Shown: positions 1-8,759 of the stretch, piece after piece
Position numbering within the stretch: position 1 is the first letter of the stretch
How the letters are laid out: the number at the start of each line of letters is the position of its first letter
From: Actinomycetota bacterium
Lineage (GTDB): Bacteria; Actinomycetota; Acidimicrobiia; Acidimicrobiales; AC-14
Assembly: GCA_040754375.1 (NCBI GenBank)
Contig: JBFMCT010000005.1
Coordinates: forward strand, 1 to 64,000
DNA: 64,000 nt
Direction: 5' to 3'
Notes under the pieces: model-generated
Told to the model about the DNA's origin: nothing
Databases searched by the model: none
The model's input: the letters and a program-made list of their open reading frames with translations, nothing else
Position numbers and translations under genes: made by a program

Positions 1-875
1 TCGACGGCAAGCTGGTCACCACCAACCTGACCGACATCAACATGGGCTACGAGGAGTTCGTCGAGCACTCGTTCTACGAGGACTGGACCAAGACCGGGCC
101 CCAGAAGTTCAAGACCGACCCCCTGGGCAACCCCCTGTCGCCTTACCACCCGTGGAACAAGACCACCATCCCCAAGCCCACGGCCACCAACTTCCGTGAG
201 CGCTACACCTGGGACACGGCCCCCCGCTGGGACCGCAAGGTCATCGAGACGGGTGCCTACGGGGAGATCTGGGGCATCGCCTTGGCCCAGAAGATCCCCG
301 ACAACCCGTTCTTCGAGTCGACGGGCGACGGGGTGCGCATGCTCCTGCCCCGCCACGCCCTGCCCGAGACCGAGCTGTTCTGGGCCGTGCCCCGCACGCT
401 CAACTGCTGGGAGCGCAACCGGGGCCGGGCCTACGCCATCCCCCTGGTGGCCACCATCGCCATGAACTGCCTGCTCCAGGCGTTCGAGTACTGGCGGGCC
501 GGGGAGACCAAGGTGCACACGCCCTTCAAGATCCCCAAGGACCACCGCATCGGCGTGGGCTTCTGGGAGGCCGCTCGCGGTTTCCTGATCCACCACATCG
601 AGATGGACAAGGGCAAGCTGGTCAACTACCAGATCACCACCCCGTCCACCCTCAACGCGGCCCCGACCGACCCGTTCGGCCAGCTCGGCCCCTACGAGGA
701 GTGCGTGGTGGGCACGCCCCTGCTGGAGTCGGTCCCCGAGGACCAGATCAAGGGCATCGACGTTCTCCGGGCCGTGCGCAGCCTCAACCCGTGCATGCCC
801 TGCACCACCCACATGGACACCGGCAAGGGCGTCATCGTGCGGGAGGTCAACTCCTGCGGCTGCACGTTCGAGTAG
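1..875 (+). CDS. hhyL: [NiFe]-hydrogenase large subunit, C-terminal part (group 1h-like)
   Basis: The open frame runs in from the window edge (codons from position 3), so only the last 290 residues are present. The C-terminal nickel-ligand motif reads NPCMPCTTH (786-812); the two cysteines bind the Ni-Fe centre, and the usual Asp of DPCxxC is Asn here. After the His, 20 residues remain, ending in SCGCTFE. This is the peptide normally removed by an M52 maturation protease, and such a gene lies at 2676. The segment HHIEMDKGKLVNYQ matches the conserved large-subunit block before the C-terminus. The accessory genes that follow fit the high-affinity actinobacterial (group 1h) type that oxidises atmospheric H2; the subgroup is inferred from context. 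Confidence 0.93.
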   Translation, partial: DGKLVTTNLTDINMGYEEFVEHSFYEDWTKTGPQKFKTDPLGNPLSPYHPWNKTTIPKPTATNFRERYTWDTAPRWDRKVIETGAYGEIWGIALAQKIPDNPFFESTGDGVRMLLPRHALPETELFWAVPRTLNCWERNRGRAYAIPLVATIAMNCLLQAFEYWRAGETKVHTPFKIPKDHRIGVGFWEAARGFLIHHIEMDKGKLVNYQITTPSTLNAAPTDPFGQLGPYEECVVGTPLLESVPEDQIKGIDVLRAVRSLNPCMPCTTHMDTGKGVIVREVNSCGCTFE

Positions 876-957: not shown

Positions 958-1509
958 ATGACCGACACCGAGACCACAGCCGAGCCGACGGCCAAGCCCC
1001 GTAAGAAGCGGCGCGTCCTGGTGGCCGGGATCGGGCTGCCGTGGCTGCGCGACCTCGACTACGGCACGCAGTTCATCAGGCGGGTGGAGGGCGAGCAATG
1101 GCCCGAGGGCGTGTCGGTGGAAGACCTGTCGGTCTCGGGCCACCGGGTGCTCGACCGCCTGATGGAGTACCGCCCCCACAAGGTCGTCCTGGTGGGGGCC
1201 ATGCCCCGCGACGTGGACCCCGCAGGCACCATCCGCCGCTACAAGCTGGACTTGGAGCTGCCCGAGGACGAGGACATCACCGAGAGGTTGGCCGAGTCGA
1301 TCGGGGGGATCATCGACCTCGACCACATCCTGGCCATCTGCCGGTGGGGGAAGGGCTTCCCCCCCGATACCGTTGTCATAGAAGTGGAGCCGGGAGACCG
1401 ATCCTTCGGCCTCGGCTTCTCCGAAGAAGTCGAGGAGACCGTCGACAAGGTGTTGGCGATGATCCGTGAGGAGCTTGGTATGAACGCTGAAGGGGTGATG
1501 GCGCCGTGA
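958..1509 (+). CDS. M52 hydrogenase-maturation-protease-like protein, atypical
   Basis: A 183-residue protein. After a charged N-terminal tail (1-19), VLVAGIGLPWLRDLDYGTQF resembles the N-terminal strand-loop of HybD/HycI proteases (GxGNxxxxDEGxG), and the later PHKVVLVGAMPRDVDPAGTI resembles the viivDAvxxGxxPG block. The residues that usually contact nickel are not conserved: the loop Glu is Asp or Tyr, the central DGGT is replaced by EDLSVSG, and no equivalent of the third-ligand His is evident. It may have lost proteolysis and kept a role in recognising the large subunit. Its stop overlaps the next start by 4 nt, so it is translationally coupled to the NifU-like gene. Family assignment is by eye. 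Confidence 0.65.
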   Translation: MTDTETTAEPTAKPRKKRRVLVAGIGLPWLRDLDYGTQFIRRVEGEQWPEGVSVEDLSVSGHRVLDRLMEYRPHKVVLVGAMPRDVDPAGTIRRYKLDLELPEDEDITERLAESIGGIIDLDHILAICRWGKGFPPDTVVIEVEPGDRSFGLGFSEEVEETVDKVLAMIREELGMNAEGVMAP

Positions 1510-2126
1510 GCGACGTCGAGCAGCTCGGTTACCTCGAGATCATGCCCCGCGTCGGCGAACTGGCCGACGAGCTGTTGAGCCACCCCGACCACAAGGTCCG
1601 TGAGCAGGTGCAGGAGCTGCTCGACTGGGTCGACGTGTTCCACCGCGAGGGCCTGGGCCGGCTGGTGGAGATGATCCGGGCGTGGCGGGGCGAGGTGTTC
1701 CTGGAGAACGTGGGCGAGGACGAGATCGCCGGGCCCTTCTTGGGCATCTACGACCTCGGCGAGGTCGCCGACGGGCGTGACATCGCCGAGGCCGAAGAGG
1801 CCGTCGGGGCCGCCCTCGAGGAGCTGCGGGGCTTCGTGGAGTCCCACGGGGGCACCATCGCCCTCGAAGGGATCCGAGACGGGGTCGTCACCGTGCGCAT
1901 GCTGGGTTCGTGCGACGGGTGCCCCAGCTCCAACGCCACCCTGACGGGCGGTGTGGAGGAGGCCCTGCGCCGCCACTGGCCCAACTTCCGCCGCTTGGAG
2001 GTCATCGACCCCGAGGCCGAGGCCGGCGCGGAGGGCAACGGCCACGGTGGCCACTCCCACGGGGCCGGGGCGGGGGCCGAACAGCCCGTCCAGCTCCTGC
2101 AGATCAGGGGGCACGAGCTTCAGTGA
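1506..2126 (+). CDS. NifU C-terminal-domain Fe-S scaffold protein with His-rich tail
   Basis: A 206-residue protein starting at GTG 1506 inside the preceding stop. Residues about 95-165 form a NifU C-terminal domain: GGTIALEGIRDGVVTVRM, then GSCDGCPSS with the CxxC cluster-binding pair, then an amphipathic helix ending in LEVID. The first 95 residues are a helical domain I do not recognise. The last 25 residues are rich in Gly and His (GHGGHSHG) and could bind Ni or Zn. In group 1h hydrogenase operons such a protein is expected to help assemble the small-subunit Fe-S clusters; the nickel-binding idea is inference. The stop overlaps the next start. Confidence 0.85.
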   Translation: MSDVEQLGYLEIMPRVGELADELLSHPDHKVREQVQELLDWVDVFHREGLGRLVEMIRAWRGEVFLENVGEDEIAGPFLGIYDLGEVADGRDIAEAEEAVGAALEELRGFVESHGGTIALEGIRDGVVTVRMLGSCDGCPSSNATLTGGVEEALRRHWPNFRRLEVIDPEAEAGAEGNGHGGHSHGAGAGAEQPVQLLQIRGHELQ

Positions 2127-2675: not shown

Positions 2676-3200
2676 ATGAGGATCCTGGTGGCGGGGGTGG
2701 GCAACGTGCTGCGGGCCGACGACGCCTTCGGGGTGGAGGTGGCCCGGCGTATGGCCACCATGAAGCTGCCCAAAGGTGTCAAGGTGGTCGAGACGGGGAT
2801 CGGGGGGATGGCTCTGGTGCAGGAGTTGCAGAGGGGCTACGACGCCATGGTGGTGGCCGACTGCGTCGACCTCGGCCGCCCGCCCGGCCAGGTCATGATG
2901 ATCCTGCCCGACGTGATCGACGTGAACCTGCTGTCGCTCGAGGAGCGCATGGACATGCTGGCCGACATGCACCTGGCCACCCCCGAACGGGTCTTCATGC
3001 TCAGCAAGGCACTGGGGGTGTTGCCCGACAAGCTCATGATGGTCGGTTGCCAACCCGAGGACCCCGAGACGCCCGGGCGGGCGATGTCCGAGCCCGTGAC
3101 CCGAGCCATCGACATCGCCATCCGCGAGATACTCCGCCACATCGACGAATTGCGCAGCGAGGAGGAGACGGCGTCGGCCAGCCCGCCGCCGGCACCGTAA
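2676..3200 (+). CDS. Hydrogenase maturation protease (M52, HyaD/HybD-like)
   Basis: A 174-residue protein. The N-terminus MRILVAGVGNVLRADDAFG is the M52 signature (GxGNxLxxDDxxG); the first nickel ligand, Glu in HybD, is Asp here. VVETGIGG occupies the position of the second ligand loop, and ADMHLATPE supplies a candidate His. VGCQPED matches the conserved near-C-terminal (G)xQPE block. The family clips the C-terminal peptide of the large subunit after nickel insertion, here presumably the 20 residues after the final His of the upstream large subunit. The C-terminal 15 residues are a low-complexity tail. It is followed directly by a TAATG overlap with the TPR gene. Confidence 0.88.
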   Translation: MRILVAGVGNVLRADDAFGVEVARRMATMKLPKGVKVVETGIGGMALVQELQRGYDAMVVADCVDLGRPPGQVMMILPDVIDVNLLSLEERMDMLADMHLATPERVFMLSKALGVLPDKLMMVGCQPEDPETPGRAMSEPVTRAIDIAIREILRHIDELRSEEETASASPPPAP

Positions 3201-4543
3201 TGTCAGCACAGGCCGCTATGTCAGACCGGGCAAACGCCATCCGTTCCCTGGAGGAGCAACTGGCGAGGACCCCCAAGGGGGCTCGCCCCCACGAGCACGC
3301 CGCCCTGTCCTACCGGCTGGGCCTGGCCTACGCCGAGTCGACGGGTACCCAGGCCGACGGCCTGCGCCGAGCCCTCACCTACTTCGACACTGCCGGGTCC
3401 ATCTTCGACCCCCGCTTCGACCCGGTCGAGCACGCCCGGGTGCTCAACGCCGCCGGCGCGGCCCACCGGGGCCTGGGCAACCGCAAGAAGGCGGCCGAGC
3501 TGTTCGACAAGGCGGCCACGCTGTTCGAGGGCAAGGCGGGGCGGGAGGCCGAACTGGCGGCCGCCCTCAACAACCTGGGCCTGGTCCGCAGCGAGCAAGG
3601 CGACTTCGACGGGGCGGTGGAGGCCTTCGAACGAGCGGTCGGGCTGTTCGACACGGGTACGGCCGAGGGGCGGCGGGGCAAGGTGGCCACCCTTCACAAC
3701 CGGGGCCAGGCCCACGCCGCCCAGGGCTCGGCCGAGGGGCTGGAAGCGGCCCTTTCGGACTACGCCGAGGCGTTGGGCGACGTCGACATCGACGAGGCCC
3801 CGTACCACTTCGCCCTCGTCCAGCACAGCCTGGGGGTGGCCCTCAGCGCCCTGGCCTCCCAGCTGGCCGACGAGCGCGAGCGCCTGCTCCAGGAGGCGGT
3901 GGCCGCTTTCAAGGAGTCGCTCACGGTCTTCACCAGGGGCACGATGCCCTACCAGTACTCGCTGGCCAAGCACAACCTCGGCCTGGCCTACGTGGGCCTG
4001 GGTGGGGTGGCCAACCTGCGGCGGGCTCTGGCGTCGTTCGAGGACACGGTCAGCATGCTCGACACCCGGGTGCACGGGGACGCCTGGCGCCAGGCCTACG
4101 CCAGCCTGGAGCGCACTGAGAACGACCTCAAGGTCGAGTTCCCGGCCATGACCCGAGTCGACCACTTCGTCAACCTCCTGGCCCAGGTCAAGGCGGACGA
4201 GCGCATCGCCCTGCTGCGTGAGCGGGTCTTCCACCTGATGGCGCTCTCCGAGCCCCAGCGCAGCCAGTTCCTCATAGAGCTCGATCTGGCCATGGCCCTG
4301 CTGGGCGGAAAGAAGGCCCGGGCCATCATGGAGGACGAGCTGAGCATCACGATCGAGTTGCCCAACGAACGGCTGGAGGTCGCCCTCACAGCTCGCCACA
4401 AGGCCCACCGGGAGATCGCCGACGACGAGCTCCGGATCGAGGCCGACACCGCTCTCGACCATGCCATCGGTGAGGCACTGGGCGGCCCTCAGCGGGTCCT
4501 GGTCCGCGACTACCTCGAAAGCATCGGATGGGAGCGCCCATGA
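3200..4543 (+). CDS. Tetratricopeptide-repeat protein of the hydrogenase operon
   Basis: A 447-residue protein. ATG 3200 overlaps the preceding TAA; a second Met six codons on is an alternative. Residues about 35-310 hold helical repeats of the TPR type with typical A-x-x-x-L-x-N-L-G-L and G-D-x-D-x-A-V-x-x-F-x-x-A spacing (for example near residues 130-155 and 255-280). The C-terminal third (about 320-447) is helical without obvious repeats. No signal peptide or TM segment, so probably a cytoplasmic scaffold. TPR proteins occur in group 1h hydrogenase operons. Its 3' end carries the first copy of the repeat at 4536. Confidence 0.85.
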   Translation: MSAQAAMSDRANAIRSLEEQLARTPKGARPHEHAALSYRLGLAYAESTGTQADGLRRALTYFDTAGSIFDPRFDPVEHARVLNAAGAAHRGLGNRKKAAELFDKAATLFEGKAGREAELAAALNNLGLVRSEQGDFDGAVEAFERAVGLFDTGTAEGRRGKVATLHNRGQAHAAQGSAEGLEAALSDYAEALGDVDIDEAPYHFALVQHSLGVALSALASQLADERERLLQEAVAAFKESLTVFTRGTMPYQYSLAKHNLGLAYVGLGGVANLRRALASFEDTVSMLDTRVHGDAWRQAYASLERTENDLKVEFPAMTRVDHFVNLLAQVKADERIALLRERVFHLMALSEPQRSQFLIELDLAMALLGGKKARAIMEDELSITIELPNERLEVALTARHKAHREIADDELRIEADTALDHAIGEALGGPQRVLVRDYLESIGWERP

Positions 4544-4664: not shown

Positions 4665-5188
4665 TCAGTGGGGACTTCGACTTCACGGGCGACCTCATGG
4701 GCACACCCCCCGTCCAGCCGTCGAACGGTGGCAACGGCCACGCCGCGGAGGCCGAACCGGTCGACTTCGAGGGGGCCCTGGCCGCGGCCGAGGACTTCAT
4801 CGAGGCCGTCGTGTGGGGTGAGCACCACAAGGTATGGGAGCTGATCGGGACCGACGGGCGCACCGAGGTCCTCGACGTGGCCACCAAGCGGGGGATGGAC
4901 GAGGGCCTGGCCGCTCGGCTGGCCGCGGACGACGCCAGCCCGGCCGAGACCAGCGAGTTCCTGACCGATCTCGTCAACGGCCTGCGGTCCGAACTGGCTG
5001 GCAACGACCTCGACAGCGTGACCTACGAGGTCGACGAGACCGCGGCCGAAGCGCCCCGGGCGGCGGTGCGCATGCTCGTTCCCCTCCACAAGCTGCTGGG
5101 GGGCACTCTGCCCATCGGGACCCTCTACCTCGTGCCCGACGCCGGCACCTGGAAGGTGGAGCGCCTGATCCCCCTCACCAGCAAGTAA
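4655..5188 (+). CDS. Unknown protein, possible NTF2-like fold
   Basis: A 177-residue protein starting at ATG 4655; an in-frame GTG at 4649 would add two residues. The first 40 residues are Gly/Asp/Asn-rich and probably disordered. The rest begins FEGALAAAEDFIEAVVWGEHHKVWELI, a helix pair that recalls NTF2/SnoaL-like domains, and ends in strands (MLVPL, LYLVPDAGTWKVERL) consistent with that fold. This is fold-level guesswork. It lies in the hydrogenase operon, 17 nt before the biotin-ligase-like gene, behind a hairpin that would partly occlude its ribosome-binding region. Confidence 0.7.
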   Translation: MSEFSGDFDFTGDLMGTPPVQPSNGGNGHAAEAEPVDFEGALAAAEDFIEAVVWGEHHKVWELIGTDGRTEVLDVATKRGMDEGLAARLAADDASPAETSEFLTDLVNGLRSELAGNDLDSVTYEVDETAAEAPRAAVRMLVPLHKLLGGTLPIGTLYLVPDAGTWKVERLIPLTSK

Positions 5189-5205
5189 CGCGCGAGAGTG
5201 TCGGA

Positions 5206-6135
5206 GTGAACGACCCCGACGGCCAGTCCGGAACGACCGACGATCCCGCGGCCGAGGCCGCGCCGCAAAAGGGCGCCGGGGCCAGCGAGCCTGATCCCGG
5301 CGAGGCCGACGCGGGCGAGGCCGAGGCCGGGGCCAGCGAGCCTGAGAGCGACGAGGCGCCGGCGCCGGCCCGTCCCCGGGAGCCCATCCACGTCGGGCCC
5401 GACACCATCGAGCGCTTCGGGCGTCCCATGCGGGTCTTCCCGGTGGCCGTCTCGTGCGAGGTCATGGCCCAGGCGTGGGCCAACCAGGAGGCCGCGCCCC
5501 ACGGAGCGGCGGTGATCGTCGAGCACGAGATCAACCCCCGGGGCCTGCACGGCTCGCTCTGGCAGTCCCCGCCCTCGGACACGCTGGCGCTGGCCATCGT
5601 CCTGCGCCCGTCGGTCTCTCCCGAGGAGTCCGACGCCACGTGGATGGTGGCCGCCCTGGCGGGGACCGAGGGGGCCGAGGCGGCCACGGGTATGAAGCTG
5701 GCCACGTGGTGGCCCGACGGGATCATCGAGCAGGAGACAGGCGACCCGGTGGGCGCGGTGAAGTCCGAGGTCCAGCTGGGCCCCGGCCAGGTGAAGTCGG
5801 CGGTGATCACGATCCGCTTCGACCTGATGCGCCTGGAGGTCGACACCCCCGAGAAGCGCGACGCCCTCACCGAAGCGGTGGTCCACGCTGTCGACCGGGT
5901 GGCCGAGCAGCTGTCCGAAGGCCCGGCCCGGGTGGCCACGGCCTATGGGGAACGGTGCGCCATGCTCGACAAGCGGATGAAGGTCCGGCTGCGGCCCAAG
6001 GGCGAGACCCGGGGCGTGGCCAAGCGGGTCGACCGGGGCGGACGGCTGGAGATCGAGTCCCTGAGCGGCATGGTCGAGCGGATCGGGGTCAACCAGTTGA
6101 TGTCCCTCGATGTGGTCGAGGCCCGCCAGCGGTAG
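5206..6135 (+). CDS. Biotin/lipoate-ligase-fold protein with degenerate active site
   Basis: A 309-residue protein from GTG 5206. Residues 1-60 are low complexity (Glu, Ala, Gly, Pro). From about residue 80 the pattern follows biotin-protein ligase catalytic domains: SCEVMAQAWANQEAAPHG (TNDEA-like helix), AVIVEHEINPRGLHGSLWQS where ligases have the GRGRxGRxW ligand loop, then LALAIVLRP for the (L)xxSxxLRP strand, and LATWWPDGII for the lKWPNDI strand. The GRGR loop is changed and the lysine of KWPND is Thr, so classical biotin adenylation looks unlikely. It ends the hydrogenase operon. A non-catalytic or different acyl/cofactor role is inferred. Confidence 0.72.
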   Translation: MNDPDGQSGTTDDPAAEAAPQKGAGASEPDPGEADAGEAEAGASEPESDEAPAPARPREPIHVGPDTIERFGRPMRVFPVAVSCEVMAQAWANQEAAPHGAAVIVEHEINPRGLHGSLWQSPPSDTLALAIVLRPSVSPEESDATWMVAALAGTEGAEAATGMKLATWWPDGIIEQETGDPVGAVKSEVQLGPGQVKSAVITIRFDLMRLEVDTPEKRDALTEAVVHAVDRVAEQLSEGPARVATAYGERCAMLDKRMKVRLRPKGETRGVAKRVDRGGRLEIESLSGMVERIGVNQLMSLDVVEARQR

Positions 6136-6724: not shown

Positions 6725-6976
6725 TCAGGACGACCCGCCGCCCCCGGCATCGGGGCCGCGGAGCTGTCCGCCCTCCCCGAGAGGTCCTTCGTCCTCGCCG
6801 GGAAGGGCGTAGGGGCGGGGCTGCTGGCGGCCCTCACCGGTCAGGTCCTGGTCCTCGATCTCGTCCATCCGGCGCTCGAGCTCGTCGCCCATGGGCTTGA
6901 CGGGCTCGACGAAGTCGGGCCGGCGGGGCATGTCGTCCTCGTCGAGCACCGGGTTCTCGGCCACGGGGTCGGACAT
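6725..6976 (-). CDS. Small acidic protein, unknown
   Basis: An 83-residue protein on the minus strand with a good ribosome-binding site (AGAGGAG) before ATG 6976. It starts MSDPVAENPVLDEDDMPRRP and is rich in Asp, Glu, Pro and Gly, with no TM segment, so probably disordered. It is divergent from the CooC-type gene at 7106 and shares a 129-bp intergenic region with it. A much longer frame continues upstream but is a shadow of other genes. No function can be assigned. Confidence 0.6.
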   Translation of the reverse strand: MSDPVAENPVLDEDDMPRRPDFVEPVKPMGDELERRMDEIEDQDLTGEGRQQPRPYALPGEDEGPLGEGGQLRGPDAGGGGSS

Positions 6977-7105
6977 GGCGGCTCCTCTCATCACTCTCTG
7001 TGGTCTGTTGGGGTCTGCCCGCCTCCTACCGCCCGCAAACGCCGACGGACCGCCCCCTGTCCGACCCCGGCTGTGCGAAGATGACCGAGTCGAAAAGGAG
7101 AGGCC

Positions 7106-7864
7106 ATGAAGCTCGGGGTAGTCGGCAAGGGCGGCGTGGGCAAGACCACGATCTCGGCGCTGATCTCGCAGGTCTACGCCGAGCAGGGCAAGCGCGTACT
7201 GGCCATCGACACCGATTCGAACCCCAACCTGGCCATCAGCCTGGGGCTCGACCTCAACCAGACCGACGCCGTGCCGGTGCTGCCGAGGCGAATGATCGTC
7301 GGCGGTGGCGACGGGGCCATGACCCCGTCGGAGCTGATCGGGGAGTACGGGGTGATGACCCCGGCCAACGTGATGCTCATCCATGCCATGCGGATCACCC
7401 AGGCGGGGGCCGGCTGAACGTGCGGTAGCCACGCTGCCGTGCGCAGCATCCTGGGTGCAGCCATCGACCAAGAGGCCGACGTGACCCTCGTCGACATGGA
7501 GGCCGGCCTCGAGCACCTGAGCCGGTCGGGGGGGACCCTGGCCTACGCCGACGTGCTCCTGGTCGTCATGGAACCGAGCCGCAAGTCGATCCTGACGGCC
7601 GGCCGCACGATCGTGCTGGCCGAGGAGCTGGGTCTCAAGCGGGTCTACGGCGTGGGCAACAAGGCCCGCGAGGGCGACGAGGAGTTCTTCCGCGAGGTCT
7701 GCGCCGAGTACAACGTGCCCTTGGCCGGCATCGTCCCCGAGAACGAGGACGTGGCCGAGGCCGACCGTTCGGGCCAGATCATGGCCGAAGGCCAGGGAGA
7801 CCCGGTGCGCGACGCCGTGCGCCGCATCGTCGCGTTCGTCGACGACGCCCTCGTAAGCAGCTGA
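7106..7864 (+). CDS. CooC-type metal-chaperone ATPase, predicted selenoprotein (Sec104)
   Basis: Read through one in-frame TGA (7415-7417), this is a 252-residue protein of normal CooC length. It has the deviant Walker A KGGVGKTT (residues 8-15), IDTDSNPNL, and Walker B plus family signature DMEAGLEHLSRSG. CooC proteins are P-loop ATPases that dimerise and bind Ni or Zn through a CxC motif near residue 112, and mature nickel enzymes. Here the motif reads G103-[TGA]104-T-C106-G-S-H, so the TGA replaces its first Cys. The flanks are in one frame with no other defect, and a SECIS-like hairpin follows. The simplest reading is selenocysteine. ATG 7106 follows AAAGGAGAGG. It lies near the hydrogenase operon, so nickel delivery to that enzyme is plausible but inferred. 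A nonsense mutation is the alternative. Confidence 0.85.
7415..7447 (+). promoter_or_regulatory. In-frame UGA plus candidate bacterial SECIS hairpin (CooC1)
   Basis: UGA is at 7415-7417. After 15 nt a 5-bp stem GCUGC/GCAGC (7433-7437 with 7443-7447) closes the loop CGUGC (7438-7442). The loop has G at position 2, and 20 nt separate UGA from the loop, which meets the usual bacterial SECIS rules (G in the first two loop bases, 16-37 nt spacing). A competing hairpin CGGUAGC-CAC-GCUGCCG (7423-7439) is possible. Manual folding only. Confidence 0.65.
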
Positions 7865-8005
7865 TCGGCCGTCACGGCCAGAGTTGGAACGCGCGCGCTC
7901 CGAAGTAGTCGCGGGATCTTCACATCCAGACTTCCGCTCTATAGGTTCGTGACATACAATGGGCGCCGACGCCCGGCACCTGTGGCGTGAACGGAGGACG
8001 ACCTG

Positions 8006-8272
8006 GTGATTGCCGCTATCAACGTCTGGTGGCTGATCGGCGACTTGCTGCTCATCCTGGTGGTGGCGCCGACAGTGGTGTACTTCCTTAACAAGGTGTA
8101 CCGCCCCGTGCTGGAGATCCGGGCCTACGCCCACGACATCCTCGAGCACGGCGTCGGTCTCACCGGCACCCTCGACGCCGTCCCGAAGCTGGCCCGCACC
8201 CGCGAGCTGACCAGCAAGGCCCGCGAAGCGACGATGCGCTACGGCTCCGCCCTGCAGCGCGTCATCTCGTGA
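8006..8272 (+). CDS. Small single-TM protein, unknown family A
   Basis: An 88-residue protein from GTG 8006, preceded by GGAGGACG. One TM helix covers residues about 8-28, followed by a basic stop-transfer (NKVYRP) and a helical cytoplasmic tail ending ATMRYGSALQRVIS. A candidate -10 (TACAAT) lies near 7954. It is the first of a series of small membrane proteins with the same plan (8006-11060 and 13257-14055). I recognise no named domain; the plan resembles DUF948-type proteins only loosely. Confidence 0.75.
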   Translation: MIAAINVWWLIGDLLLILVVAPTVVYFLNKVYRPVLEIRAYAHDILEHGVGLTGTLDAVPKLARTRELTSKAREATMRYGSALQRVIS

Positions 8273-8386
8273 GCCTGGGCCAGCGCCCGCCCGCCATCCC
8301 GGCCGCCCCGACGGGGTGGCTGTCCGATCTGTCACCCGGTTGGGCCCGCCTCCGCCGGTTGAGCATTCCAGAACCTGGAGGAACCC

Positions 8387-8674
8387 GTGGGAATTGAGTC
8401 CATCCTTCTGTTCGTCGGGCTTGCGGTCGCGGTAGCGACCATCGCCCTCTACCTGATCGTCGTGGCTTGGATGCTGCGGGACGTCAGCTTCACCGTCGGT
8501 ACGGTGCTGGTGGGCGTGCGGGCTATCGCCCTGCAGGTCCAGCCCATCGGACCGGTCGTGCGCGACATCGTCCGCGACGTCCAGACCATCGACGAGGCTC
8601 TCTCCGGGCTGGTCGAGCAGGCCGAGGAGATCGAAGAGGCCCGCGAGCGGGGCGAGGTCGGCGCCGCCTCCTAG
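8387..8674 (+). CDS. Small single-TM protein, unknown family B
   Basis: A 95-residue protein starting at GTG 8387 after a clear CTGGAGGA site. TM helix at residues about 4-28, then a long amphipathic helix with LVGVRAIALQVQPIGPVVRDIVRDVQTIDEAL and an acidic end EQAEEIEEARERGE, likely a coiled coil in the cytoplasm. The VGVRAI segment recurs as FGVRAVETM in the protein at 13804, which supports common descent. It is 114 nt downstream of the previous small protein and ends before a strong hairpin at 8719. Confidence 0.75.
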   Translation: MGIESILLFVGLAVAVATIALYLIVVAWMLRDVSFTVGTVLVGVRAIALQVQPIGPVVRDIVRDVQTIDEALSGLVEQAEEIEEARERGEVGAAS

Positions 8675-8718
8675 CGGAGGGCCCACTTCGCGACCTCGCA
8701 GCCCCTCTGCGAGGTGTT

Positions 8719-8759
8719 GACGACCCATGGCTGCCCCTCGTGGGAGGCCATGGGTCGTT
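8719..8759 (+). terminator. Hairpin after the 8387 gene
   Basis: An 11-bp perfect stem CGACCCATGGC (8721-8731) pairs with GCCATGGGTCG (8747-8757) around a 15-nt loop. Only a few T residues follow, so it is a likely but not certain intrinsic terminator. Confidence 0.6.

Follow-up and report, generated by a model that had tools for sequence, protein, structure and literature searches.

A gene within a 64,000-nucleotide stretch of an Actinomycetota bacterium genome (GenBank assembly GCA_040754375.1, contig JBFMCT010000005.1, positions 1 to 64,000; hereafter the window) encodes an ATPase of the CooC/MinD type, in which an in-frame UGA is almost certainly read as selenocysteine (Sec), although this has not been shown at the bench. 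The UGA falls at the position of a metal-binding cysteine of CooC1, and the same arrangement recurs in unrelated bacteria next to hydrogen-oxidizing enzymes. The first-pass annotation had predicted a U-x-C selenoprotein from one in-frame UGA in an otherwise complete CooC gene, and this observation was confirmed and its main interpretation supported. However, two corrections were necessary. The genome has no match to CooS, the Ni-CO dehydrogenase, and the gene belongs to a [NiFe]-hydrogenase-linked clade beside classical CooC. In addition, the window holds two such predicted selenoproteins rather than one.

The gene and its predicted product

The open reading frame comprises 252 codons with exactly one internal stop, the UGA at codon 104, in the context QAGAG-U-TCGSH, and it ends at its own UGA at 7862-7864 (Table 1). 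The protein matched MinD/ParA-type P-loop ATPases in Pfam and NCBIfam, although none of the matches exceeded an NCBIfam cut-off. The GKGGVGKTT and DMEAGLEH motifs were both present. The best sequence match in the PDB was CooC1 (3KJE/3KJG/3KJH/3KJI, E 1.6e-25), with residues 104 and 106 aligned to Cys112 and Cys114, which are the Zn/Ni ligands at the CooC1 dimer interface (PMC6006190). An AlphaFold2 model with a mean pLDDT of 83 showed the MinD/NifH fold, and CooC1 ranked second in a Foldseek search with this model. The motif loop itself was modeled with low confidence, the pLDDT of residues 100-108 being below 50.

Table 1. Coordinates of the features described in the window and in related loci (G000, the genome of the window; L numbers, loci of this study)
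Position	Strand	Feature
42..875	+	C-terminal part of [NiFe]-hydrogenase large subunit, cut by the contig start; closest solved relative HofG 5AA5
598-884 and G000:C63 end (L136)		288-bp, 98% identical second copy of the hydrogenase large-subunit 3' end
958..1509	+	Hydrogenase maturation protease-like protein (TIGR00072)
1506..2126	+	NifU-domain protein, HhyE/HucE-like by position and domain (PMC6883350)
2676..3200	+	HupD/HycI hydrogenase maturation protease
3200..4543	+	TPR protein conserved in these hydrogenase clusters (start approximate)
4834..6135	+	Biotin-ligase-like protein conserved in these clusters
6725-8728	-	667-aa ORF antisense to the selenoprotein gene, probably a high-GC artifact
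7095..7100	+	Shine-Dalgarno-like AAGGAG, 5 nt before the ATG start codon
7106..7864	+	Predicted selenoprotein gene: hydrogenase-linked CooC-type (MinD/SIMIBI) ATPase, 252 aa with Sec104
7124..7150	+	Deviant Walker A / P-loop GKGGVGKTT
7415..7417	+	UGA codon 104, predicted Sec; aligns with CooC1 Cys112
7421..7423	+	Cys106, second residue of U-x-C; aligns with CooC1 Cys114
7433..7447	+	SECIS-like hairpin GCUGC-CGUGC-GCAGC, 5 bp, loop CGUGC (7438-7442), G at loop position 2
8006..8272	+	Small conserved ORF of the cluster, 62% identical in L010
32061..32786	-	Sibling predicted selenoprotein gene, U-L-U-C motif, two in-frame UGAs, own hairpin CCCGAGC-AGUU-GCUCGGG
32827..33576	-	Further MinD-family ATPase next to it, no in-frame stop
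G000:C11:60774-61463 (L092)		Third Sec-type copy in the genome, motif U-T-W, second Cys lost
G000:C15:31374-32108 (L091)		Cys paralogue in the same genome, 62% identical to the window protein
L031:5815-6468 and L150:8910-9001	- and -	Geodermatophilus chilensis: UAG at the sibling's Sec site and tRNA-Sec with CUA
L033:3010-3732	-	C-P-C-C gene that keeps the full hairpin

Evidence for selenocysteine decoding

The genome holds the whole Sec machinery, including SelA, SelB beside it, SelD and a tRNA-Sec with a UCA anticodon. A formate dehydrogenase (FdhA) in the same genome carries UGA at its known Sec site, in SCNRT-U-HAPS, and serves as an internal positive control. Relatives in public genomes carry either UGA or Cys at the codon 104 column, which was otherwise invariant in a 20-sequence alignment. 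The UGA was found in Acidimicrobiia-like MAGs, other actinobacteria, SAR324, Thermomicrobiales, other Chloroflexi (with both Cys replaced), Gemmatimonadales and Verrucomicrobia. On a 117-row tree, the UGA/Cys label changed 14 times by parsimony, with at least 9 changes forced by well-supported branches. This tree came from a quick search, and UGA was written as Cys, so the label itself was not in the data. Comparison with three relatives gave dN/dS values below 1 both before and after the UGA, the highest being 0.58 after the UGA in the relative L028.

The hairpin at +16 to +30 after the UGA formed all five pairs in 21 of 24 UGA genes and in none of 68 Cys genes (Fisher 7e-18, relatedness not corrected). 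When the protein was held fixed and synonymous codons were drawn at random, only 0.64 intact hairpins were expected rather than 21. Four of the five positions showed more than one standard pair type, with pair changes on both sides. This position was chosen after viewing the folds of the UGA genes, so the Cys genes and the codon test are the fairer controls. The three UGA genes lacking the exact five-pair hairpin were L038, L040 and L059. By folding energy alone the hairpin was unremarkable, with a z of -1.4, and the MFE structure of 7415-7455 preferred another hairpin starting nearer the UGA. Rfam gave no SECIS match at the site. The case for the hairpin therefore rests on comparison.

SelA was found in 26 of 27 genomes with a Sec copy, and in 14 of 31 genomes with only Cys copies among those scanned (Fisher 3e-5, relatedness not corrected). 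The exception was a SAR324 MAG, while another SAR324 MAG with the same motif has SelA.

The sibling family

The second such ATPase in the window has the motif U-L-U-C, with UGA at both Sec positions. In relatives, the motif is U-P-U-C, C-P-U-C or C-P-C-C. One C-P-C-C gene (L033) kept the full hairpin although no SelA was found in that MAG, and looks like a recent Sec-to-Cys change. In Geodermatophilus chilensis, the stop at the matching site is TAG, and the tRNA-Sec beside its selA has a CUA anticodon, which ARAGORN labels as tRNA-Pyl. In contrast, a Nocardioidaceae relative with TGA has a tRNA-Sec with UCA. A UAG-decoding tRNA-Sec has been reported in Blastococcus (PMC5330540). We consider this match of codon and anticodon to be the strongest single evidence for Sec decoding, though it concerns the sibling family and rests on one genome with UAG.

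Gene neighborhood and inferred role

The window opens inside a [NiFe]-hydrogenase large subunit nearest HofG, followed by protease-like, NifU, HupD, TPR and biotin-ligase-like genes and then by the predicted selenoprotein gene. Relatives in several other phyla lie with NiFe large and small subunits, HypC/D/E, proteases and a NikA-type transporter. Based on these observations, we propose that SelB and tRNA-Sec decode UGA 104 as Sec, directed by the downstream hairpin, which is strongly supported by comparison but not shown by experiment. Sec104 and Cys106 of two subunits probably form one metal site at the ATP-controlled dimer interface, as inferred from the alignment with CooC1. The ATPase most likely carries Ni(II) to a group-1h-like [NiFe]-hydrogenase rather than to a CO dehydrogenase. 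Our confidence in this explanation is high, but it applies mainly to Sec decoding, which is close to certain. There are no selenium, nickel or expression data. The nickel role is inferred and is only somewhat more likely than not. That a selenolate would give a softer, more easily re-reduced ligand in an aerobic cell is speculative.

Some observations do not fit this role easily. HypB is present in the genome, so a second Ni chaperone is not obviously needed, and the possibility that the ATPase replaces HypB was rejected for this reason. Some Sec members have one chalcogen per subunit (U-T-G, U-T-W), which does not fit a simple four-ligand site. Furthermore, the CooC of R. rubrum is not involved in maturing its CO-induced hydrogenase (PMC6006190).

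The main alternative is that the protein is a selenoprotein whose Sec serves redox chemistry during hydrogenase maturation rather than Ni binding, as an Fe-S or thiol/selenol switch or in ATP-driven reduction as in NifH/BchL-like relatives. The model aligned well with NifH and BchL too, a NifU-domain protein lies in the cluster, the U-T-G variants keep a single chalcogen, and many listed selenoproteins are redox proteins (PMC13188914). However, the sequence is closest to CooC1 with the CxC pair in register, and NikA-type transporters lie beside several relatives. We regard this alternative as unlikely. Maturation of a Ni-CO dehydrogenase, as by classical CooC, is very improbable. CooC1 is the closest solved structure by sequence, and clostridial relatives with Cys sit next to CooS, but no CooS match (TIGR01702) was found in this 97% complete genome and the Sec members all fall in the hydrogenase-linked clade. 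That the UGA is a real stop, as it is by table 11, in a pseudogene, a sequencing error or two separate polypeptides is very improbable. The same UGA recurs in other assemblies with a conserved hairpin and purifying selection downstream, and the codon of the sibling family follows the tRNA-Sec anticodon.

It is also possible, though slightly less likely than not, that a family of selenium-dependent metallochaperones serves the [NiFe]-hydrogenases of aerobic bacteria, holding Ni at a subunit interface by selenolates. This would involve two Se and two S in U-x-C members, and up to four Se in the U-x-U members of Chloroflexi and of the sibling family.

Comparison with known systems

The finding would add a CooC/MinD-type ATPase to the known selenoproteins. 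The 2026 inventory table does not list one (PMC13188914), and we found no earlier report, although this novelty is provisional because the literature was searched mostly by keyword and by named terms (PMC5424206, PMC12013277, PMC9312934, PMC5029168, PMC5330540, PMC6006190, PMC9164220, PMC12976888, PMC6776052, PMC6883350), without preprints and supplements, and an earlier prediction may exist. The result points to a role for selenium in building a nickel enzyme rather than in catalysis, and links selenium supply to hydrogen-oxidizing gene clusters in several phyla. It also reveals a class of genes that annotation now cuts in two at the UGA. The Sec and Cys paralogues in one genome make the effect of selenium directly testable.

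The group 1h (Hhy/HofG) [NiFe]-hydrogenase gene clusters likewise contain a large subunit with a NifU-domain protein and proteases, but the passages returned by term searches of two papers name no CooC-type ATPase (PMC6776052, PMC6883350). The nearest entry in the selenoprotein inventory is a CobW-related selenoprotein (NF041053), known here only from its table row, which is also a predicted selenoprotein of the P-loop NTPase metallochaperone kind. However, CobW belongs to the G3E GTPases, and the motif is UxxC. ATPase-type HypB (PDB 5AUQ/3VX3) is a MinD/Mrp-type ATPase that shares the fold (Foldseek E 2e-11), with a weak sequence match (phmmer E 3e-5). CooC1 of Carboxydothermus hydrogenoformans is also a MinD-class ATPase and shares the deviant Walker A and the metal-binding pair in register (PMC6006190). 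It differs in having Cys-x-Cys instead of the predicted Sec-x-Cys, and in serving CO dehydrogenase, whereas the gene described here, in a genome with no CooS match, lies with a hydrogenase.
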